64,000 nucleotides of DNA from Rhodoferax sp. (lineage in GTDB: Bacteria > Pseudomonadota > Gammaproteobacteria > Burkholderiales > Burkholderiaceae_C). Numbering within the stretch: position 1 is the first letter of the stretch; each line of letters opens with the position of its first letter. Of the stretch, positions 31,285-50,448 are shown in pieces. Where the stretch lies: NCBI RefSeq assembly GCF_023700745.1, contig NZ_JAMPYG010000005.1:62001-126000 (forward strand). The letters are read 5' to 3'. The translations under genes and the position numbers were made by a program. The notes under the pieces are model-generated. The model saw nothing but the letters and a program-made list of their open reading frames with translations, had not been told where the DNA came from and searched no databases.

Positions 31285-32823
31285 TCACAGCTTGGGCAGC
31301 ACCTCGGCCACAGCGCAGGTGGCAATGTCCATGAGTTTGGCATGTCGCGGTTCGTTGCTCGACAACAGTGAGGTCACCTGGGCGTAGGAGTTGTTGACAA
31401 ACACCTTGCCCTCGGGCGTGTCCCGCTCCACGCCGTAGCGGATTTTTGAGCGTTCGGTGTTGGACAGTTTGCTGATCAATCCCTTGGTAGCCCAGATCTT
31501 GCCAAAACGTGCCAGATCAGACAAGCGTCCGCAAATATTGATGGTTTCACCCAGCACCACCAATTCAAAGTTGGTATTGGTCTTGAATGTGCCGAGCCAT
31601 TCCTCACCCTCGCTCAAACCGATATTCATGTACAACTGGTTGGTCCAGCCCTTGCGTACCTTCCAGTCATGGCTGATGCCCTGCATGGTTTCGCGCACCT
31701 TGTTGGCACACAGCACGGCGTTCATCAGGTAATTGCGGTCGGGCTGCGGAAAGAAGTAATAGACCATGCCGTCGCCCGTGTGCTTGCCATAGGCGCCGTA
31801 ATACTCCCGGAAGATCGGATCGAGCGTGGACCAGATCTGGTTGATCAGCTGAAAGTAATCCTCGGGCGGCAACTCGGAACAAATACGCACCGAGTTTTGC
31901 AGGTCGGCCACCATCACCGCCAGCGGGGTCAACACCGGCAGACGCTGGCTCAGCAAACTGCGGATGAAGGTGTCGCGCCGTGATATCGATTTCAACAGCT
32001 GATCCACGTCCTGCTTGTCGGGCACATAGACAATCAACACACCTTCGCGAAACCCCAGGGCCAGGACCTGGCAGGGACCGACGTCAGGATCAGGATGCAT
32101 CAGCCCAACAATGTGCTGGATCCGGTTGTCGGGCTCGGGACATTGGTCGTAACAGGTCATCAGCCAGTGCCGCTGCGCATCAGGCAGGTCGCCCAGATTC
32201 TGGCTGAAGGTCTGGCGCGGCAAACGGCTTTTGATCAGGCCCAGATGGGCATTGAACAGGTTGGACTGCTCCGGCGCGGGCAGATCGGCCGCCCAGTCAA
32301 GCAGGGTCGGCACGATCGAACGATCGACGGCGCGCTCCGGGATCTGGTTGCCGGCAAAGAATTCTTTCTGGGCCAGCGCGTTGAGCCAGATCAGCTGAAA
32401 CTCGAAGTTGACCATGTAGGCGGCATAGGGAATGTTTTCCACCGAGACCTGGACAGACTCACTGGCCTGGACAGTGGCGCTGCGTTTTTCAACCATCGGG
32501 GGCTTGTCAGCCGGTGCGCTGGCGACTGGCGATGGCAGTTGTTGCCGTGGCGGCGGTGGTGCCGTCTGCGTGGCGGGTTCGGGCGCATCGGCCAGCTGGT
32601 GCCTGATGTCATCCATGCTGGCACCCTCGCGCTTGAGTTGCTGGATCTGCCGGATGCGTTCCAGCGCCCAATCCGGGAAATAGCCCAGCGTGGTGGGCGC
32701 CTCGCCAGGCGCCGCCGCTTGCCGACGCACCTCGGGCCGGGGCAGCAACCCGACCGCAATGTAGTTATTGAGGGTGGCACGCGAGATACCAGTTCCTTCA
32801 AGCAGCGCAACGCTAGTTAACAT
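31285..32823 (-). CDS. MerR-type HTH fused to a class III adenylate/guanylate cyclase-like domain
   Basis: A 512-residue protein with an unusual layout. Residues ~1-78 look like a MerR winged helix (LLEGTGISRATLNNYIAVGLLPRPEV, then FPDWALERIRQIQQLKREG). A Pro/Ala/Gln-rich linker (80-125) leads to a PAS-like domain (about 128-275, with YMVNFEFQLIWLNALAQ). Residues ~300-480 match the class III nucleotide cyclase fold: metal Asp candidates D307 (VADLQNS) and D351 (HTGDGM), K347, and the transition-state pair N429 and R433 in ETINICGRL. E426 occupies the position often held by Asp. Start ATG 32823 is chosen over a TTG at 32859. Function as a DNA-binding cyclase is inferred, not shown. Confidence 0.78.
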   Translation of the reverse strand: MLTSVALLEGTGISRATLNNYIAVGLLPRPEVRRQAAAPGEAPTTLGYFPDWALERIRQIQQLKREGASMDDIRHQLADAPEPATQTAPPPPRQQLPSPVASAPADKPPMVEKRSATVQASESVQVSVENIPYAAYMVNFEFQLIWLNALAQKEFFAGNQIPERAVDRSIVPTLLDWAADLPAPEQSNLFNAHLGLIKSRLPRQTFSQNLGDLPDAQRHWLMTCYDQCPEPDNRIQHIVGLMHPDPDVGPCQVLALGFREGVLIVYVPDKQDVDQLLKSISRRDTFIRSLLSQRLPVLTPLAVMVADLQNSVRICSELPPEDYFQLINQIWSTLDPIFREYYGAYGKHTGDGMVYYFFPQPDRNYLMNAVLCANKVRETMQGISHDWKVRKGWTNQLYMNIGLSEGEEWLGTFKTNTNFELVVLGETINICGRLSDLARFGKIWATKGLISKLSNTERSKIRYGVERDTPEGKVFVNNSYAQVTSLLSSNEPRHAKLMDIATCAVAEVLPKL

Positions 32824-32846
32824 GAGATGGCTCACTGTTTCTTTAT

Positions 32847-32963
32847 TAGACAATTGCAACTATACAGATAGACAGATGAAATGCAAGTGTCCAACATAGA
32901 CAGTTATTATTTAGACAGTTACTGTTGTCAAGATGCATCAGTTGTCTAATTCATACAGCTGTA
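32847..32963. promoter_or_regulatory. Repeated TAGACA motif array and palindrome upstream of the cyclase gene
   Basis: TAGACA occurs at 32847-32852, 32869-32874, 32897-32902 and 32912-32917, the last two as identical TAGACAGTTA decamers 15 bases apart. An inverted copy TGTCTA is at 32943-32948, and a perfect palindrome TACAGCTGTA at 32954-32963. The array starts 23 bases before the ATG of the MerR-cyclase gene, so autoregulation through its own HTH is plausible. Confidence 0.5.
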
Positions 32964-32993
32964 CAAATCAATGGCGATTGAACCGGCAGTGCT

Positions 32994-33117
32994 AATTTGT
33001 AGGAGGCCCACCGCCGGACCGATAGCTGCTGGAATGCCATAGCGGCGGGGGCGCCGCTCCTACAGGGCGCCTGGTAATTTGTAGGAGGCCCGTCCTCAGG
33101 CCGATGGCTTTCTGCCT
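32994..33117. repeat. REP-like palindromic intergenic repeat, two units
   Basis: A 16-base unit beginning AATTTGTAGGAGG occurs at 32994-33009 and again at 33076-33091. Between them the inverted arm GCGCCGCTCCTACA (33051-33064) pairs with TGTAGGAG. The same TGTAGGAG/CTCCTACA palindrome design recurs at 50368-50434. Similar elements are scattered through genomes of related bacteria. Confidence 0.6.
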
Positions 33118-34994
33118 CAGGCGCGCGGCCGGAAAGCCCTCAGCTGGTCTTCAGGCATGGCATCCAGCACCTCGCAGGCGTAGTCATAACCCTGCTTGGT
33201 GATGCTGTCAAAGCGCTGCCACTGCAACATGCCCACGCGCTCCAGCGGCGGGCTGAAGTAGAGGTCGGTCAGCCTGCGTGATTCGCCCTGGCGCGAGTTG
33301 CTGTACATGATATTGACATTGAGCAGATAAGCCATGAACGAGGGCAGCTTGTAGCGGCGCTGCTGGCGCGGGCGCAGGCGATCGCGCAACAGCGCCCAGG
33401 TGCCCGGTACTTCTTCAAACGTCACGGGCTTGGGCTTGCGCACGCCCAGGTCCATGCCGATCACCTTGCCAACGCCGCGCCGCTTGCGCATGATGCTGAC
33501 GGGGAAGTTGTTGAAGGTGCCACCGTCAAACAGCAGGTCACCTGCAACCGGGACCGGCGGGAACGCACCGGGGATGGCGGTGCTGGCCAGAAGCGACTGG
33601 GTCAGCGGCCCCTCGCTGATCACCTGCTCGCAGGCCTTGGTGTAGTTGCTGGCCACGCAAAAGTAGTTTTTCCAGGTGTCTTCAATGTCCGCCGGGTGAC
33701 CGAAGATCTGCTCCAGCGCCACCTGCAGAATGCGGCGCATGCGGCGTCCGCGAATCAGCGAAATCAGCGGCAGCAGGTTGAAGTCGCCGGTGGGTTTGTC
33801 GGCAAAGGCCGCGCGCGCAATGGGCATCACGCTGGCCAGCGGCTGGTCTGAGGCGACCATGGCCGCCATGATGGCGCCAATGCTGGTGCCGCCGACAAAA
33901 TCCACCACCAGGCCGCGCTCCAGCAAGGCCTGGTAAAGCCCCAGGTGCGCCAGCCCCTTGGCGCCACCACCGGCAAGCACCAGGCCCACCGCGGTCCGGC
34001 TCTGAATGCGCGCCAGCCGCGCCATGTCACTGTCGAGTGCCGGCCGCACGTGCACATGGTCGGCAACAGGCCGGCGCGCCAGCCATTGCCGGGTGCCACT
34101 GGGGCAGCGCACGTCAGCCGCGTGCAGCAGCACCAGGATTTGGGCCGCATCACTCTGCCCGCCCCGCTGCATCAGGCAGGCGGCCTCTGAAGCATGCAGC
34201 ACGGGGGGCTGGCTGGCGTCGGCCAGCAGCAGGATCTCGTCGCTGTGGCGGCTGCAGCGTTGGGTCCAGGCGCTGGCATCGGCATCGCCCACCAGCAGCA
34301 CAAAATCGTGCGCCAATTCCAGTTGGTCCAGGTACTGGGCGATGCGGCGGTTGGCGGCGTTGTCGGCGTTGTCGGCGTTGTCGGTGACGGCAGTGTGCGT
34401 CAGACCAGACTGCTGCAGGGCCGTATCGACACTGGCGGCATCGACCAGGCAGACCTTGCCCATGCGGCCCAACTGGACAGCCAAACGTCGTGCGAAGTCG
34501 GCGCCGTCCACCCCTGCCGTGACGGGCAGCAGCGCCATGACCAGCGGCGGCGGCACTGCCGTGCGCGGGCTGGTACTGGTGAGCCGCTTGATCATCTGGC
34601 GGGTCAGCGCAATCGACATCTGCGCGCTGCTGGCCAGCAAGCTGGCAAACTCGGACTTGGCCAGGCGCACCAGCACCGAGTTGCGAATGGCCACCACCGT
34701 GGCCGTCCGCGGCTCGTCGGTGTACAGGCTCATTTCACCAATCACCTCGCCCCGCCCCATCTCGCGCACCATGTGTTCAGCGCCGTCGTCGCCCAGCACC
34801 GAGGCCCGCAGGCGTCCGCTGATCGACAGGTACATGGCGTCGCCTTGTTCGCCCTGGCGCATCAAAGTGTCGCCAGCGGCCAGTTCAACCCACTCAAGGT
34901 GGCGCCGCAAAAGCTGCAGGGCCTCGGCATCGACCTCGCCGAGCATGCGTTGCAAATGGTGGATGAGCACCTGCTCGGGGTAGTCGGTCGGCAT
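33117..34994 (-). CDS. Patatin-like phospholipase with N-terminal cyclic-nucleotide-binding domain (NTE-like)
   Basis: A 625-residue protein laid out like neuropathy-target-esterase homologues. A cNMP-binding domain (about residues 12-140) has the phosphate-binding cassette GEMSLYTDEPRTATV, with E87 and R96 in place. A middle domain (about 150-325) has no catalytic motif I recognise. The patatin domain (about 335-525) has the oxyanion loop GGGAKG (342-347), nucleophile S371 in GTSIG, and the catalytic Asp D490 in DGG. It should hydrolyse lysophospholipids or other acyl esters, perhaps under cyclic-nucleotide control. It begins 31 bases after the CoA-transferase gene and carries a 9-bp tandem repeat encoding Asp-Asn-Ala units. 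Confidence 0.88.
   Translation of the reverse strand: MPTDYPEQVLIHHLQRMLGEVDAEALQLLRRHLEWVELAAGDTLMRQGEQGDAMYLSISGRLRASVLGDDGAEHMVREMGRGEVIGEMSLYTDEPRTATVVAIRNSVLVRLAKSEFASLLASSAQMSIALTRQMIKRLTSTSPRTAVPPPLVMALLPVTAGVDGADFARRLAVQLGRMGKVCLVDAASVDTALQQSGLTHTAVTDNADNADNAANRRIAQYLDQLELAHDFVLLVGDADASAWTQRCSRHSDEILLLADASQPPVLHASEAACLMQRGGQSDAAQILVLLHAADVRCPSGTRQWLARRPVADHVHVRPALDSDMARLARIQSRTAVGLVLAGGGAKGLAHLGLYQALLERGLVVDFVGGTSIGAIMAAMVASDQPLASVMPIARAAFADKPTGDFNLLPLISLIRGRRMRRILQVALEQIFGHPADIEDTWKNYFCVASNYTKACEQVISEGPLTQSLLASTAIPGAFPPVPVAGDLLFDGGTFNNFPVSIMRKRRGVGKVIGMDLGVRKPKPVTFEEVPGTWALLRDRLRPRQQRRYKLPSFMAYLLNVNIMYSNSRQGESRRLTDLYFSPPLERVGMLQWQRFDSITKQGYDYACEVLDAMPEDQLRAFRPRA
34351..34386. repeat. 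9-bp tandem repeat inside the patatin gene
   Basis: Four units of TTGNCGGNG (TTGGCGGCG, two TTGTCGGCG, TTGTCGGTG) in frame, coding for DNADNADNAAN around residues 205-214 of the middle domain. Gain or loss of units keeps the frame and would change a linker length. Confidence 0.85.
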
Positions 34995-35025
34995 AGGAAT
35001 CCAGTCAAGGTTTGGGGGAAACGCC

Positions 35026-36966
35026 TTAGAACAAGGTGGTCACGCGCACGGTGTCCATGGTGGGTTCGGTACTGACCTGCAGCGAACCATTGCGGGCCAG
35101 CCGGATCATCTTGTCGTTGTCGGGTAGGATTTCGGCGAGGAAACCGCGCACACCGCGCGCCTTGGCGTGGCGAACCATGCACGCCTGCAGGCTGGACCCC
35201 AGGCCGCAGCCCTGCCAGTCCGGGTGCACCATGAAGGCGGTTTCCGCGAGGTTGGTGGACGGGTCGACAAAATAACAGCCCTGGGCCACGATCTGCGCGT
35301 TTTCGCGGCTACCGATGGCCGCGACAAACGCCACCTCGGACTCAAAATTGAGGTTGCACAGGCGCTGCACCTCTTTAGCAGACAGGCCACGCACCTTGCG
35401 GAAAAAGCGGGTGTAGACGTCCTGCTCGGGCAAGCAATGAAACAGCGCGCGAATCGCCTCCCCGTCCGACGAGGTGGCCGGACGCAGCAACACCTGCCTT
35501 TTGTCGCGCAGCAGCACGCCCTGCTCTTCTTCCACCGGATAGGCCCGCATGTTGTGCAGGGTTTGCCCCGGCGGCAGGTAGCCCAGCGCCTGGGCCTGCG
35601 CGAACAGCTCGGCCCGGAACCGGGGATGCGCCACTTCAATCAGCGCCACCGCGCGTTCGCGGATGGACTTGCCAAACAGGTAGGCAATACCGAATTCGGT
35701 GATCACGTAGTGCACCGCCGTACGCGGCAGGCTGGCGCCCTCCCCTGGCTGCAGCATGGCCCGGATGCGCGAGGTTTCGCCATCGTCTTCGGTCGAGGTC
35801 AGACAAATGATGGGCTTGCCGCCTTCGGACAAGGAAGCCCCTTCGAGAAATTCCATCTGGGCGGCCATGCCGCTGTAGTAATCGCCCTGCAGCTGATCCA
35901 CGCACACCTGTCCGGTGAGGTCGATGGCGAAGGCCTGGGTAACCGACACCATGCGGTGCTGCGCGGCAATGGTGGCGCTGTGGCAAACCGCCTCGATCGG
36001 CTGGAACGAAAACAGCGGGTTGCGGTCGATCAGGTCATACAGCCGGCGCGAACCCATGGCAAAGCTGGTCACGATCTTGCCGACCTGGCGGCTTTTGCGC
36101 TTGCCGGTCAGGATGCCGCGCTCCAGCAGCGGAATGATGGCGTCGGTCACCACGTCGGAGTGGATGCCGAGGTCCTTGCGGTCGGCGAGGTATTTGAGCG
36201 CTTCGTTGGTGATGCGGCCGAGCCCGATTTGCAGCGTGGAGCCGTCTTCGATGATGCCGCTGATGTAGCGCGCAATCTGCTCCATGGCCTGCTCGGACGC
36301 CGGCGGATGCACAAACTCGACGACCGGGGTGTCGACCAGCACCAGATGGTGGATCTGGCTGATATGCAGGGTCGAGTCACCCATGGAACGCGGCATGGCC
36401 GGGTTCACTTCGGCAATCACCAGCCGGGCCCTGGCCACGGCAGCGGGGATCACATCCACCGAAATGCCCAGGCTGACATAACCGAACTCGTCGGGCAAGG
36501 ACACCTGGATCAGCGCGACATCGACCGCAATACGGCCAATCGCCATCAGGCCCGGCACCCGGGCAATCGACATCGGCACATACTCGGCCAGCCCCTGCCT
36601 GACGGCAGCGCGCATGTCCTGGCCGACAAAAAAAGTACGGTGCCGGTAGTGGGAGGTGCATTGGCCCTGCGCATCGTGCGGCACCGCATGGTCGGTCAGG
36701 AAGTGCACCAGCTCCACGTCCGAGGGCCGCGGTTTGCAGGCTTCCAGCGCCGCCACCAGCGCACGCGGTGTGGCGCAGGCGGTGCCCACAAACACATGAT
36801 CGCCATCACGCACCTGCAACAGCGCCTGCCCGGCGCTGGTGAGCTTGTCAGCATGTGCTTGCAGGGTGTCCGGCAAGTCGGGTTGTGCCACTTGCGCCGG
36901 CCCACCCAGACGGGCACGCAAACCCTTGCCCAGGCGGGACATGAGACTGTCAGCAGGTTGATCCAT
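35026..36966 (-). CDS. Acetyl-CoA hydrolase/CoA-transferase family protein fused to a GNAT acetyltransferase domain
   Basis: A 646-residue fusion. Residues ~45-470 form a two-part family I CoA-transferase/acetyl-CoA hydrolase (FGYVSLGISVDVIPAAV, LQIGLGRITNEAL, VHYVITEFGIAYLFGKSIRERA). Residues ~490-640 are a GNAT domain (VLLRPATSSDGEAIRALF, and the acetyl-CoA loop QGCGLGSSL). At the position where I expect the catalytic Glu (family motif G-I-H-[ST]-E) this protein has Asp, D271 in GIHSDVVTD. The activity may therefore be altered or lost, or the family may use Asp. It lies between the acyl-CoA ligase and the patatin genes in a tight minus-strand row. Confidence 0.85.
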   Translation of the reverse strand: MDQPADSLMSRLGKGLRARLGGPAQVAQPDLPDTLQAHADKLTSAGQALLQVRDGDHVFVGTACATPRALVAALEACKPRPSDVELVHFLTDHAVPHDAQGQCTSHYRHRTFFVGQDMRAAVRQGLAEYVPMSIARVPGLMAIGRIAVDVALIQVSLPDEFGYVSLGISVDVIPAAVARARLVIAEVNPAMPRSMGDSTLHISQIHHLVLVDTPVVEFVHPPASEQAMEQIARYISGIIEDGSTLQIGLGRITNEALKYLADRKDLGIHSDVVTDAIIPLLERGILTGKRKSRQVGKIVTSFAMGSRRLYDLIDRNPLFSFQPIEAVCHSATIAAQHRMVSVTQAFAIDLTGQVCVDQLQGDYYSGMAAQMEFLEGASLSEGGKPIICLTSTEDDGETSRIRAMLQPGEGASLPRTAVHYVITEFGIAYLFGKSIRERAVALIEVAHPRFRAELFAQAQALGYLPPGQTLHNMRAYPVEEEQGVLLRDKRQVLLRPATSSDGEAIRALFHCLPEQDVYTRFFRKVRGLSAKEVQRLCNLNFESEVAFVAAIGSRENAQIVAQGCYFVDPSTNLAETAFMVHPDWQGCGLGSSLQACMVRHAKARGVRGFLAEILPDNDKMIRLARNGSLQVSTEPTMDTVRVTTLF

Positions 36967-37065
36967 GGAACATATTGGATAGGCACCCTGGCAAATGGGC
37001 TGCAGTTAAAACGGGGGTTGTCTGACCACTGTATCGAATCATCTTACCTGATCCAGGTCAAACAA

Positions 37066-38751
37066 TCATTGCCAGATCACCGGCTGACCGGAGTCTTCCC
37101 AGCGGGTGTAATTGGCTGAATAGATGTCTTCGATACGGTTTCTCTTCACCTTGAAGGTGGGCGTCACAATGTCGTTCTCGATGGTCCACGCGGTGCTGGC
37201 GACCACCAGGCACTGGAGCTGTTCATGCGGGTCGAGGCTGGCATTGATGGTTTTCAGGTGTTGCCCCAGCGCTGCTTCGACCAGGCCGCGCTTGGCGGGG
37301 TCTGCGGCACGCGCCACCGCTTCGGCATTGAGCATCACAATGCCCAGCGGCTGCCCCAGATTGGCCCCGGTCACCACACAGGCCTCCACCAATTCGTGCA
37401 TCACCAGCTTGTCTTCGATGGGCGCGGGCGCCACGTATTTACCCTTGCTGGTTTTGAACAGATCCTTGACGCGCCCGGTGATGTGCAAGTTACCCTGCGC
37501 ATCGATGTGACCCTTGTCACCGGTGTGCAGCCAGCCGTCGGCGGTAAAAGCTTCACGGGTCAGTTCAGGCTCTTTGTAGTAGCCTTGCATCACGGCCGGG
37601 CTGCGCATCTGAATCTCGCCGGTGGCCGCGTCAATGCGAACATCCACACCGGCATAAGGTGGGCCGACGGTGCCTTCCTGATTTTGGCCAAGCAGCGTGA
37701 GGTTGGAGACCGCCAGGTTTTCGGTCATGCCATAACCTTCGTTGATGGGCAGGCCCAGCTTGCGGTACCAGGCCAGCAACGGCACCGGCATAGGCGCGGC
37801 ACCGCCGGCGGCAAAGCGGCATTGGTCCAGCCCCAGCGCTTTTTTCACCTTGCGGCGTACCAGGCCGCCAATGAGCGGGATGGCCAGCAGCCGGTTGAGC
37901 TTGGCGGGTGGTAATTTGTGGTGCACGCCCTGCTGGAACTTGACCCAAAGCCGTGGCACCGAAAAGAAAATGGTCGGCCGCGCACGCTGCAGATCCTTGG
38001 CAAAGGTGTCGAGCGATTCGGCAAAGAAAACATGCATGCCGGTGGCCAGCCAGCCATGCTCAACCAGCGCGCGCTCGACCACATGGGCCAGGGGCAGATA
38101 GGACAGCATGCGGTCTTCCTGCGTCATCTTCACACTGTCGACACCGCGACCGATGGCCCAGGCGAAATTGCCAAAACTGTGCATCACGCCTTTGGGTTGG
38201 CCCGTGGTGCCCGAGGTGTAGATCAGCGTGGCAAGTTCATCAGCATCGCGCACCACCTCACCGTTGAGAGGGGTGTTACGGGCGATGATGGCATCCCAGC
38301 CCTCAAAACGCCTGATGGCATCTGCCGGCGAAAGTGGGTAGCTGATGCAGGGCATGTCGGCAGGCAAGCCAGGCATCATGCGCTCCCAGTCATCGAGTTT
38401 GCCGACAAAACAGGCCTGTGCTTCGCTGTGCGACAAAATATGCCGCACCGTGCCATGTGCCAACGTGGGGTACAGGGGTACCGACACGTAGCCGGCCATC
38501 CAGATCGCCAGATCGCTCATCAACCACCAGGCACAGTTCTTGGACAGAATGGCTACCTTTGAGCCTGGCGCCCAGCCCTGGGCCTGAAGGTGGGTTGCCA
38601 TGCGCCGGACTTCATCGCCCACTTGAGCCCAGGTGAAGTCCCGGATGACACCGCCGCCCATCGGCTGGGTCAACGCAATCCGATCAGGTGCCGTCCTTTC
38701 CCAAAAATACAGGCGTTGCAAAGCCAGCAAATCAGATGAAACCGGGTTCAT
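37066..38751 (-). CDS. AMP-forming long-chain acyl-CoA synthetase
   Basis: A 561-residue ANL-family ligase that activates a carboxylic acid as acyl-AMP and then acyl-CoA. The AMP-binding signature is LIYTSGTTGQPKGVMHSFGN; other core motifs are INEGYGMTEN and GWLHTGDKGHIDAQGNLHITGRVKD, with the C-terminal lid beginning after LFKTSKGKYVAPAPIEDKL. The sequence resembles FadD15-type bacterial long-chain ligases. The start MNPVSSDLLALQR is chosen; an upstream ATG at 38844 adds a segment without family similarity. It is the first gene of the minus-strand row leading to the CoA-transferase-GNAT and patatin genes, 99 bases before the former. Confidence 0.9.
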   Translation of the reverse strand: MNPVSSDLLALQRLYFWERTAPDRIALTQPMGGGVIRDFTWAQVGDEVRRMATHLQAQGWAPGSKVAILSKNCAWWLMSDLAIWMAGYVSVPLYPTLAHGTVRHILSHSEAQACFVGKLDDWERMMPGLPADMPCISYPLSPADAIRRFEGWDAIIARNTPLNGEVVRDADELATLIYTSGTTGQPKGVMHSFGNFAWAIGRGVDSVKMTQEDRMLSYLPLAHVVERALVEHGWLATGMHVFFAESLDTFAKDLQRARPTIFFSVPRLWVKFQQGVHHKLPPAKLNRLLAIPLIGGLVRRKVKKALGLDQCRFAAGGAAPMPVPLLAWYRKLGLPINEGYGMTENLAVSNLTLLGQNQEGTVGPPYAGVDVRIDAATGEIQMRSPAVMQGYYKEPELTREAFTADGWLHTGDKGHIDAQGNLHITGRVKDLFKTSKGKYVAPAPIEDKLVMHELVEACVVTGANLGQPLGIVMLNAEAVARAADPAKRGLVEAALGQHLKTINASLDPHEQLQCLVVASTAWTIENDIVTPTFKVKRNRIEDIYSANYTRWEDSGQPVIWQ

Positions 38752-38861
38752 GGTCGTTGTCTCCGTCGCGGTTGGTGTTGCGCTCCCAATGGAGTTCACT
38801 GCGCCCAGTATAGGCAGACCACCTTGATTTGTGAACCCTCCCAACCGTCAAAACCGCCCTA

Positions 38862-39697: not shown

Positions 39698-40153
39698 ATG
39701 AAACGTTCCATGCGTACAGTACAAAAGGGTTTTACCCTGATCGAGTTGATGATCGTTGTGGCGATCATTGGTATTCTGGCTGCCGTGGCGCTGCCGGCTT
39801 ATCAGGATTACACGGTGAAGTCCAAAGTCTCCGAGGCTGTGAGCTTGTCTTCGCCGGCACGGACGTCTTTGGGTGTTGCCTGCAGTGAAGCCACATTGGC
39901 CTCCGGTATTACTCATGCGTCATTAGGTCTGCCTGATGCAGCGGACATTAAAGGAAAATACACAAAGCAAGTACTCGCTGCGGCTACATCAGCTTCTGAA
40001 GCGACGGTGACCATTCAAATGTTAGCTATTGGTAGCGCGATAACTGACGGACAAGACATTGTTTATAAGGGAACTTGTGGTGTGGCGGGTATGACTTGGG
40101 AGATTGACGCAGGAGCTTCTGAAGTAGCCGACAAGTACCTGCCCAAGGTTTGA
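39698..40153 (+). CDS. pilA: Type IV major pilin PilA
   Basis: A 151-residue type IVa pilin. The leader [11 protein letters not shown] is cut before the F of [20 protein letters not shown], which holds the conserved Glu at position 5 of the mature protein. The body has the [16 protein letters not shown] segment of beta- and gammaproteobacterial pilins. Two Cys (VACSEATL and KGTCGVAG) can form the C-terminal disulfide loop. The start has an AAGGAG site at 39686-39691; an upstream ATG at 39656 lies before the expected transcription start and is rejected. A terminator follows and then a gene for a pilin glycosyltransferase. Confidence 0.96.
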
Positions 40154-40230
40154 TGCGATTGACTGAAGCCTGATTTGATTCCCCACTGCTGACTTCCTTG
40201 TGTGGGGTCAGTGTAGAGAATTCCGACATA

Positions 40231-40258
40231 AGGCACCCCTTTGAGGGTGCCTTTTTTT
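40231..40258 (+). terminator. Intrinsic terminator after pilA
   Basis: Stem AGGCACCC (40231-40238), loop CTTTGA, stem GGGTGCCT (40245-40252), followed by seven T. It should limit read-through from the strong pilin promoter into the downstream glycosyltransferase gene. Confidence 0.92.
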
Positions 40259-40289
40259 GTGCGTCAATACTTAAGAATGGCTTGAGCTG

Positions 40290-42059
40290 ATGAAAACCGA
40301 TAAGCCGATCATGTCATCTTTTTGGCTGGTTGCATGGTCATGCACGCTAGCCCTGGGCTGGTTACTCCCAAACCATTATCACCCTTGGTTATCTTTTCAT
40401 TCTGACGCATGGGTCGCGCTGTCGGCGTCATTGGCTTCGTTCGCTGTCATTTGGCGTGCACGTCAACCTCTTGCATGGCATCGCATCACCATCCTGGTTG
40501 CGCTGCTGCTGTGTCTGATCTGGCTACAACATTTTCTCGGCCTGATACCCATCATGGGGAGCGCCTGGATATCGTCGGCATATTTGATTGGCCTATTGCT
40601 GGCGATGCTGACGAGTGCGCATTGGGAAGCACGTTCCCCAGCCCAGCTTGGTGATGGGCTGTTCCTGGCGATTGGCATCGCCGCCTTGGTGTCGGTGAGT
40701 TTGCAGATGCAACAAATGTTGCAATTGGTGGGTCTCACCTCGGTGTCGTCGCTCGGGCCGCAACTCCAGCAATCTCTGCAACTCGATGGACTGGGCCTCT
40801 GGATCATGGGCAGTAACACAGATCGCCCACACGCCAACCTGGGCCAGCCCAATCAGTTAGCCACCTTGTTGTTATGGGGGGTGCTGGCTGCCGCATGGGG
40901 CCTTATAAGAAAACGCATCGGCGGCACGATCGCGCTGCTCATGATGCTATTTCTTTTGTTGGGTATCGCTTTGACCAGCTCGCGCACCGCCTGGGTTGGG
41001 GTGGCTTTGTTGGTTGGAGCGGCGTGGTGGTGGCGACAGTTGTGGCGCAACGCACGCTGGCCCTGGGTCGCCACGGGCTTGGGCTTGTATTTTGTCGTTT
41101 GTGTTGTGGGCGTGAACTGGATGCGCCAAATATGGCTGGGCACGTCACAGATGGATATTGACCATTTGATTCGGCTCAGTGGTGAAATTCGTCCACTTGC
41201 GTGGTCGATTTTTCTGGATGCGGCCTGGCAGCGGCCATGGTTCGGCTACGGCTGGAACCAGACTGCGCTGGCGCAAATGGCAGTGGCAAGTGAGCATCCA
41301 CCGTTGCATGTTGTGTTTACTTATGGGCACAACCTGTTTCTTGATCTGGTGCTGTGGTGCGGCGTTCCGCTGGGTTTGCTGATATCGGCTTCGCTGATCG
41401 GGTGGTTCTGGAAACGGCTTCGCGCGATTCAGAGCGCGGAAAATGCCGTGCTTTGGCTTGTTTTACTGGTCGTGGCTAACCACGCCATGTTCGAGTTGCC
41501 TTTGTACTATGCCTATTTTTTGCTGCCCGCCGGTTTGGTGATGGGGTCGTTGCATACGCGACTGGGTGTGTCGCCCATTGTGTCGATGGGACGCAGGGCT
41601 TTTCTGGCACTGTGGTTTGCAATGACGACACTTTTGGCACTCATCATTCGTGATTACACCCGTGTCGAGCCAAGCTATCAGACCCTGCGTCTGGAGTGGT
41701 CGCGCATCAAAATGACCTTGCCGGTAGGGCCGCCAGACGTATTGCTCTTGACCCAGTGGCATGACTACATCAAGTATGCAAGGATCGAACCCACAGCGGG
41801 TTTGAGTGCTGCAGAATTGAATTGGATGCGCAACGTCACAGGCTTGTACCCCAACCCCATTCTCATGCACAAATTTGCAATCACTTTGGCGCTGAACCAA
41901 CGTCCCGATGAAGCCCGGTTATGGCTGAAAACGCTGTGCAAGGTGGCACCTGACTCCGAATGTCTTATTGCAGAGAAGTTATGGGCCAGACAGTCTTTAA
42001 AGTATCCCGAAATCGCCGCAATTCCCTGGCCAATCAAGAAAACCGATCTCGCCCCTTAA
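40290..42059 (+). CDS. PglL/TfpO-type O-oligosaccharyltransferase (Wzy_C family)
   Basis: A 589-residue inner-membrane protein with about 12 hydrophobic helices. It should transfer lipid-linked glycan to Ser/Thr of pilin in the periplasm. The large-loop motif RPHANLGQPNQLATLLLWG is the PglL_A signature, and the Wzy_C core includes TSSRTAWVGVALL, WFGYGWNQTA and the conserved His in YGHNLFLDLVLWCGVP. A soluble C-terminal part (about 480-589) follows. Its place directly behind pilA supports pilin as acceptor, as for the pilO/tfpO gene next to pilA in Pseudomonas. Base composition is a little lower in GC than its neighbours. A role in O-antigen ligation is the alternative. Confidence 0.88.
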   Translation: MKTDKPIMSSFWLVAWSCTLALGWLLPNHYHPWLSFHSDAWVALSASLASFAVIWRARQPLAWHRITILVALLLCLIWLQHFLGLIPIMGSAWISSAYLIGLLLAMLTSAHWEARSPAQLGDGLFLAIGIAALVSVSLQMQQMLQLVGLTSVSSLGPQLQQSLQLDGLGLWIMGSNTDRPHANLGQPNQLATLLLWGVLAAAWGLIRKRIGGTIALLMMLFLLLGIALTSSRTAWVGVALLVGAAWWWRQLWRNARWPWVATGLGLYFVVCVVGVNWMRQIWLGTSQMDIDHLIRLSGEIRPLAWSIFLDAAWQRPWFGYGWNQTALAQMAVASEHPPLHVVFTYGHNLFLDLVLWCGVPLGLLISASLIGWFWKRLRAIQSAENAVLWLVLLVVANHAMFELPLYYAYFLLPAGLVMGSLHTRLGVSPIVSMGRRAFLALWFAMTTLLALIIRDYTRVEPSYQTLRLEWSRIKMTLPVGPPDVLLLTQWHDYIKYARIEPTAGLSAAELNWMRNVTGLYPNPILMHKFAITLALNQRPDEARLWLKTLCKVAPDSECLIAEKLWARQSLKYPEIAAIPWPIKKTDLAP

Positions 42060-50367: not shown

Positions 50368-50434
50368 CGTAGGAGTCGCGCCCTCGCGACGAAGGCTGTT
50401 TTGAATACCTTCGCGGCGGGGCGCCACTCCTACA
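50368..50434. repeat. REP-like palindrome between aceF and lpdA
   Basis: GTAGGAG (50369-50375) and CTCCTAC (50427-50433) bound an imperfect palindrome with GAAGG/CCTTC and GCGCC inner arms. It has the same TGTAGGAG design as the element at 32994-33117. Within the operon mRNA it would fold into a stable hairpin. Confidence 0.65.
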
Positions 50435-50448
50435 GGTGCGTCAGCCTT

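Follow-up and report, generated by a model that had tools for sequence, protein, structure and literature searches.

Closest described systems

Phospholipases of the neuropathy target esterase family (NTE/PNPLA6) carry cNMP_binding, NTE_Ploop, and Patatin domains in one chain. Here we describe PAT, a bacterial relative of this human nerve-disease lipase, which is encoded beside CYC, a predicted maker of cyclic nucleotides. Both genes lie in a 64,000-nucleotide (nt) stretch of Rhodoferax sp. (assembly GCF_023700745.1, contig NZ_JAMPYG010000005.1, positions 62,001 to 126,000 of the forward strand), referred to below as the window. PAT has the same three domains as NTE and keeps E87 and R96 in the cyclic nucleotide monophosphate (cNMP) domain and Ser371 and Asp490 in the lipase. 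It contains one cNMP domain and has recurrent cyclase neighbors, whereas human NTE contains three cNMP domains (excerpts of PMC9025805 and PMC9319352). A short protein with one intact cNMP domain and recurring cyclases makes the question of nucleotide binding in the NTE family testable in vitro.

The mycobacterial acetyltransferase Pat (Rv0998, MSMEG_5458) is activated by cAMP via a fused cNMP domain (excerpt of PMC5861322). Its likeness to the locus lies in model NF058543, which matches the cNMP part of PAT and the GNAT part of a neighboring protein, CoAT-GNAT, both below the family cut-off. The two parts here are in adjacent proteins, and the GNAT part is fused to a CoA-transferase-like domain.

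CYC has the fold and catalytic residues of the class III cyclases CyaB (3r5g), Cya2 (2w01), and CyaC (1wc1). It differs in that the cyclase is fused behind a MerR-type helix-turn-helix (HTH) and a PAS-like domain and has Val at the second specificity position. It shares a MerR HTH and short repeated sites with the LitR/CarH regulators but has no B12 domain, and its TGTCTA sites have no fixed spacing or orientation. PmlR2 binds TGTACA-N12-TGTACA (excerpt of PMC9758184). The pairing of a cyclase with a cNMP-domain effector recalls Pycsar (excerpt of PMC9117128). Among the titles listed in a limited literature search, none describes a MerR-cyclase fusion like CYC or this arrangement of a patatin with a cyclase or cNMP domain; the excerpt of PMC2447327 does not mention HTH, MerR, or helix-turn-helix.

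Class III cyclases near PAT in other genera

Genomes are given G numbers and loci L numbers. We read 23 PAT orthologue loci from 22 genomes (two from G011), taking flanks of about 8.5 kb wherever the contig was long enough; contig ends truncate some of the loci (L052 spans 9 kb). With a hidden Markov model rebuilt with matches from the searched regions, class III cyclase domains were found at 8/23 PAT loci, all within 5.3 kb, and at 1/40 controls and 0/11 paralogue PAT loci (Fisher p = 8.6e-4 for the proximity at 8/23 loci). The control regions were chosen manually by offset; a cyclase is present on many of their contigs, and one region (L208) is 2.7 kb. G091 and G118, whose cyclase is 8.2 kb distant or beyond the end of the contig, were scored as misses in the 8/23. 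Clustering of open reading frames (ORFs) around PAT was spoilt in high-GC genomes by spurious antisense ORFs and was kept out of the counts.

The cyclases are of several kinds. G030 encodes a REC-cyclase whose domain lies about 300 nt upstream of PAT. G114, G041, and G384 encode a CHASE2-cyclase with a FecR gene. G011 encodes two AAA_16-TPR cyclases. G034, G077, and G007 encode a divergent cyclase with NB-ARC and TPR domains. Without the divergent type the count is 5/23 PAT loci versus 0/40 controls. Pfam PF00211, set against genome-wide counts, gave a cyclase within 3 kb at 4/19 PAT loci versus 0.147 expected (P = 1.8e-5) and within 8.5 kb at 6 loci versus 0.339 expected (P = 1.6e-6); the observed counts were entered by hand, and the distance cut-offs were chosen after the data were seen.

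On the PAT tree, the seven neighbor labels need 9 changes. The MerR-PAS group forms one clade, and NB-ARC needs 2 changes. The CHASE2 type is scattered with 3 changes, 2 of them forced by well-supported branches; many forks are weak, and the tree indicates that genera are not independent events. The linkage of PAT to a cyclase probably arose more than once, because the architectures differ and the labels scatter on the tree. The FecR and CHASE2-cyclase genes at L054, L056, and L238 lie near PATs that do not group, as if the module had met PAT repeatedly or moved.

Further cNMP-domain genes were present at 7/23 PAT loci (one, at L057, a 34-residue fragment) and at 0/40 controls. They include SulP-STAS-cNMP transporters (G091, G118, and G499) and a CRP-like regulator (G077). 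In G091, another cNMP-domain protein is encoded directly downstream of PAT (L050, 5151-7046, minus strand), besides the SulP-cNMP gene.

The recurring cyclase neighbors suggest that a cyclic-nucleotide signal may indeed switch the lipase. The reading that we favor, held at a little under even confidence, is that PAT is a cyclic-nucleotide-responsive phospholipase that lineages have wired to different local class III cyclases. Its observed basis is the gene order, the domains, the residues, the repeat enrichment, and the recurrent proximity of cyclase and PAT. We infer that the sensor-cyclase makes a cyclic mononucleotide, which would bind the intact cNMP domain of PAT and switch the Ser/Asp lipase. 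CoAT-GNAT would sense CoA esters via its catalytically altered CoA-transferase domain and acetylate targets such as acyl-CoA ligases. CYC would be a separate protein of the one-component type, combining a MerR HTH, a PAS-like sensor, and a cyclase. It would control its own synthesis by binding the TGTCTA repeats of its promoter, and it may supply the signal to PAT.

A broader version appears possible but doubtful. Bacterial NTE-type patatins would be cyclic-nucleotide-gated phospholipases that serve as a plug-in output. Lineages would attach sensor-cyclases (MerR-PAS, REC, CHASE2 with FecR genes, AAA-TPR, or NB-ARC-TPR) and cNMP outputs (SulP transporter or CRP-like regulator) to a core of PAT and CoAT-GNAT. 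The Rhodoferax-like input would be a DNA-binding cyclase controlling its own gene, which would couple signal synthesis and transcription in one protein.

Several results from these loci weigh against a cyclase-wired PAT. No cyclase is in the region at 15/23 PAT loci. The pattern was noticed in the first 19 loci and held for 1/4 of those read later. The domain is divergent at 3/8 cyclase loci (G034, G077, and G007) and was not reported by Pfam in the two scanned (G034 and G077). Its matches came mostly via a query from L042, itself a PAT locus, and the same query gave the sole control match. The cNMP profile was seeded with PAT domains and genes of L050, L052, L237, and L044, so that the seeds are 4 of the 7 loci matched; it also matches 3/11 paralogue loci.

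Occurrence of the four genes together

The initial annotation proposed that four neighboring genes, encoding an acyl-CoA ligase (ACS), CoAT-GNAT, PAT, and CYC, form a module for lipid turnover. We looked for them in a family sample of 120 genomes of different genera (our own and 119 others) and in an order sample of 399 genomes. PAT was found at E <= 1e-60 in 26/120 genomes including our own, and at 46% identity or more, as an orthologue, in 19/119 other genera. ACS was found at E <= 1e-150 in 46/119 other genera, none nearer PAT than about 150 kb on the same contig, with coordinates compared by hand. ACS is thereby rejected as part of a conserved module. CoAT-GNAT was found in 7 other genomes and adjoins PAT in 6/7 (6 of the 19 other PAT-bearing genera). 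The two genes are divergent in G091 and G118, PAT comes first in G034, G077, G007, and G011, and the window has a third arrangement. G050 encodes CoAT-GNAT and has no PAT match.

The distribution of CYC counts against its being a standing partner of PAT. Full-length CYC was found in our own genome and in one other genus (G097, 35% identity), which has no PAT match at E <= 1e-60. In the order sample, scored with 3 candidates per genome, CYC (E <= 1e-20) was found in 12 genomes and PAT (E <= 1e-120) in 6, and our own genome was the only one with both. At the 72 CYC loci outside the Rhodoferax-like clade, no PAT or CoAT match above 100 bits was present in the available stretch, which for some loci is short and bounded by contig ends. 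The exact set is therefore unlinked in relatives across both samples, is peculiar to one lineage, and is rejected as a conserved module. The initial annotation named missing linkage of cyclase and patatin genes in relatives as a result that would refute its proposal, and for CYC this is the result obtained. The proposed neighborhood of a cyclic-nucleotide maker and reader survives in another form: it recurs for PAT with other class III cyclases (the 8/23 loci), and it does not extend beyond one clade for CYC.

The Rhodoferax-like clade comprises 8 CYC loci. All have xseA within about 2.1 kb of CYC. PAT is near CYC in 7/8: within about 340 nt at L076, L077, L079, L080, and L083, at about 1 kb at L081, and at about 7.7 kb at L078. 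The remaining locus, L082, encodes ACS, CYC, and xseA and is missing both PAT and CoAT.

These loci bear on the strongest alternative, that the gene order is an accident. CYC would then be a stand-alone autoregulated gene kept near xseA, PAT and CoAT-GNAT would lie between ACS and CYC with no functional tie, and PAT would read the global cAMP pool. We consider this a serious possibility, although clearly short of an even chance. The constancy of xseA while PAT and CoAT come and go fits it, as do the separate promoter region of CYC, the absence of PAT at the 72 other CYC loci, and the lack of any further genome with both genes in the order sample. The enrichment of cyclases at PAT loci elsewhere argues for a wired PAT instead. 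It is plausible that CYC serves PAT within the Rhodoferax-like clade.

No conserved neighbor of CYC beyond lineage synteny was seen around its relatives. Some relatives have EAL-GGDEF, GAF-HD, or other cyclases nearby. EAL-GGDEF or GGDEF proteins are encoded within 3 kb of CYC in several (L088, L101, L136, L141, and others). At L129, L136, and L147, an EAL-GGDEF or GGDEF gene lies directly downstream of CYC, at 18 nt. Two records of metagenome-assembled genomes (MAGs) with CYC-family genes, L100 and L119, are titled Bordetella parapertussis. Their neighbor genes match MAGs titled Betaproteobacteria (L092 and L097), so the Bordetella parapertussis titles may be misassigned.

PAT protein

The initial annotation described the cNMP cassette of PAT as intact. 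E87 and R96 are as described there and are invariant in 30/30 aligned rows; Ser371 is present in 29/30 and Asp490 in 30/30. The NTE P-loop-like domain is matched by PF24179 (2.1e-24). Among the best sequence matches of the cNMP domain are kinases dependent on cGMP or cAMP and proteins of the CRP family. In our view, PAT is genuinely a reader of cyclic nucleotides, which it would bind through this domain; different lineages would join it to different cyclases, and CoAT-GNAT would be a frequent partner. The gating of lipid hydrolysis by a cyclase signal is a further step that we infer.

The cNMP domain could instead bind no cyclic nucleotide and serve localization or autoinhibition, as suggested for animal NTE. 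The NTE literature favors this and counts against a nucleotide-gated PAT: the excerpt of PMC9319352 reports no evidence of cAMP binding to the cNMP domains of human NTE and states that cAMP did not alter its esterase activity in vitro. The invariance of E87 and R96, the kinase and CRP-family matches, and the cyclase neighbors of PAT all speak against a domain that does not bind. So does cell work cited in the excerpt of PMC9025805, in which a cAMP-raising treatment increased NTE levels and activity. We judge a non-binding domain unlikely.

CYC protein and upstream repeats

CYC was aligned with the best 80 of 287 relatives (81 rows), and only those 80 loci were read. Because the relatives were collected with the peptide ISRA[TA]L[NQ][NS]Y, the selection itself accounts for part of the conservation seen in that helix. 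Class III cyclases use two metal-binding Asp residues and a transition-state Asn and Arg. With numbering from the ATG, all 81 rows share Asp307, Lys347, Asp351, Asn429, and Arg433, which bears out the earlier description of intact metal and transition-state residues. The canonical base-specificity pair for ATP is Lys plus Asp or Thr. The second position is Val in 35 rows, Ala in 26, Thr in 18, and Ile in 2; it is Val in the window.

CYC is predicted to fold as a MerR HTH, a PAS-like domain, and a cyclase, with a mean pLDDT of 81.7 over the full chain and 82.7 in the middle domain. MerR_1 was matched in 80/81 members at E <= 0.5 (5.8e-05 for the window protein). The initial annotation named the HTH and the cyclase, both of which were recovered; it did not mention the PAS-like domain between them. 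The PAS matches are weak: PAS domains make up most of the 50 listed matches of the middle domain, and no listed match reaches E <= 0.001. An MmyB-like ligand domain was considered for this part and rejected; its Pfam matches are weak (21/81 members at E <= 0.5), and MmyB is not among the 50 matches listed. CYC belongs to a separate betaproteobacterial family of MerR-PAS-cyclases. In two relatives, L070 and L072, the open frame is without the first 50 residues, including the HTH helix, and the L071 frame contains two stops.

Upstream of CYC (up to 220 nt before 81 genes, with the expectation taken from the rest of the same loci), TGTCTA/TAGACA occurs 190 times versus 2.3 expected, which is about 80-fold enrichment. 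At least one copy is present in 74/81 loci. A position weight matrix, AACTGTCTAAATA, built from the same upstream regions that it then scored, gave at least one site in 80/81 and at least two in 70/81, with no fixed spacing or orientation. CYC is the only place in the home genome (3.21 Mb, 94.6% complete) where exact copies of TGTCTA are paired at a distance of 3-30 nt (3 direct, 1 inverted, and 0 of the other orientation). MerR regulators use a single palindromic operator inside a long -35/-10 spacer. The CYC sites are instead non-palindromic and vary in number, spacing, and orientation.

CYC looks self-regulated, because its own promoter region carries this family-wide enrichment; it would bind the TGTCTA repeats there. 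This family may represent a cyclase that directly regulates its own gene. No exact TGTCTA/TAGACA occurs in the stretch of the window from the stop of PAT to the start of ACS, and one match with 2 mismatches, at 38843-38853, is within chance numbers. Both results weigh against the reading that we favor. A wider regulon based on TGTCTA direct repeats was rejected: 13/32 matches in the genomes of 13 relatives sit at CYC (9/13 genomes; assigned by hand from contig coordinates), and the remaining 19 are no more numerous than the 40 matches of the reversed-pattern control. TGTCTA-type site pairs also lie within the CYC coding sequence of L089, L093, L110, L149, and L155, about 75-230 nt past the start.

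CYC might act mainly as a transcription factor, with its cyclase-like domain sensing a nucleotide and making no signal. The repeat enrichment fits such a role. Two relatives, L003 and L075, have lost the metal and transition-state residues; L003 (35% identical), with its degenerate cyclase domain, retains the HTH and the upstream repeats. The L075 genome (G378) also encodes an intact paralogue, L066. The invariant catalytic residues of the 81 rows and the confinement of close exact TGTCTA pairs to CYC in the home genome make this role improbable, and we prefer CYC as a working cyclase.

In Pycsar systems, the dedicated cyclase PycC stands next to a cNMP effector of the TIR or TM type. A Pycsar-like anti-phage pair of a cyclase and a cNMP-gated membrane-damaging effector is very unlikely here: although PADLOC matches the PAT cNMP domain to PycTIR/TIR effectors (E about 1e-15) and CYC to PycC (1.4e-9), these matches are partial and to domains common in ordinary signaling proteins, the output is a lipase, the cyclases beside PAT are multi-domain sensor-type proteins of several kinds, and PAT is spread over 19/119 other genera with no plasmid record found at E <= 1e-60.

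CoAT-GNAT and locus layout

The CoA-transferase was earlier thought to move freed acyl groups. 4-Hydroxybutyrate CoA-transferases have a catalytic Glu at the HTEM position, as in the two solved enzymes with alignments (9vag and 3eh7). Residue 271 of CoAT-GNAT is Asp in 9/9 sequences. GNAT enzymes bind acetyl-CoA through a QxxGxG loop, and the loop WQGxGLG is intact in 9/9. Among the PDB matches of CoAT-GNAT, 4nxy is named an acyl-CoA synthetase and 9isq a protein acetyltransferase. Because Asp replaces the catalytic Glu throughout, CoAT-GNAT probably acts as a Pat-like acetyltransferase whose transferase domain is dead or weakened, and not as a normal transferase.

The four genes stand in one minus-strand row with the expected domains (Table 1), as originally described. 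The Pfam matches are MerR_1 and Guanylate_cyc for CYC; cNMP_binding, NTE_Ploop, and Patatin for PAT; AcetylCoA_hydro, AcetylCoA_hyd_C, and GNAT for CoAT-GNAT; and AMP-binding for ACS. The CYC ORF runs from 31285 to a TTG at 32859, and the start aligned with the family is the ATG. The row was first drawn to end at 38751, which is the in-frame ATG of ACS; the ORF reaches farther, to the TTG.

Table 1. Features of the PAT-CYC locus in window coordinates
Feature	Position	Strand	Description
CYC	31285..32823	-	MerR-type HTH, residues 1-78; PAS-like, about 120-293; class III nucleotide cyclase, about 297-470
Putative CYC promoter region	32845..32950	-	5 exact TGTCTA/TAGACA sites at 32847, 32869, 32897, 32912, and 32943; candidate CYC operator
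Repeat pair between PAT and CYC	32990..33109	.	Two copies of a 38-nt repeat (79% alike) carrying inverted-repeat arms
PAT	33117..34994	-	NTE-type patatin; N-terminal cNMP-binding domain (E87, R96), P-loop-like domain, Ser371/Asp490
CoAT-GNAT	35026..36966	-	4-Hydroxybutyrate CoA-transferase-like domain (Asp271); C-terminal Pat-like GNAT
ACS	37066..38844	-	AMP-forming acyl-CoA ligase; TTG ORF, in-frame ATG at 38751

The gaps are 99 nt (ACS-CoAT), 31 nt (CoAT-PAT), and 293 nt (PAT-CYC, to the CYC ATG). The last contains the repeat pair and the five exact sites. The row is probably two transcription units, because this gap is wide and site-bearing and the other two are tight; ACS-CoAT-PAT is an operon-like unit in the Rhodoferax-like lineage. 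A promoter-like match lies ahead of the ACS ATG (38835-38807); it is weak, with 3 such matches in the region versus 2.3 in shuffles.

The repeats between PAT and CYC include a 19-nt inverted repeat and may represent a small intergenic repeat of the dispersed kind. At 50423-50436, CCTGTAGGAGCGGC recurs with one mismatch. On the plus strand at about 39698-42059, a type IV pilin-like gene (KGFTLIELM start, by eye) is followed by a gene for an O-antigen-ligase/PglL-type protein (Pfam PglL_A, Wzy_C, and Wzy_C_2). These are a possible pilin glycosylation pair.

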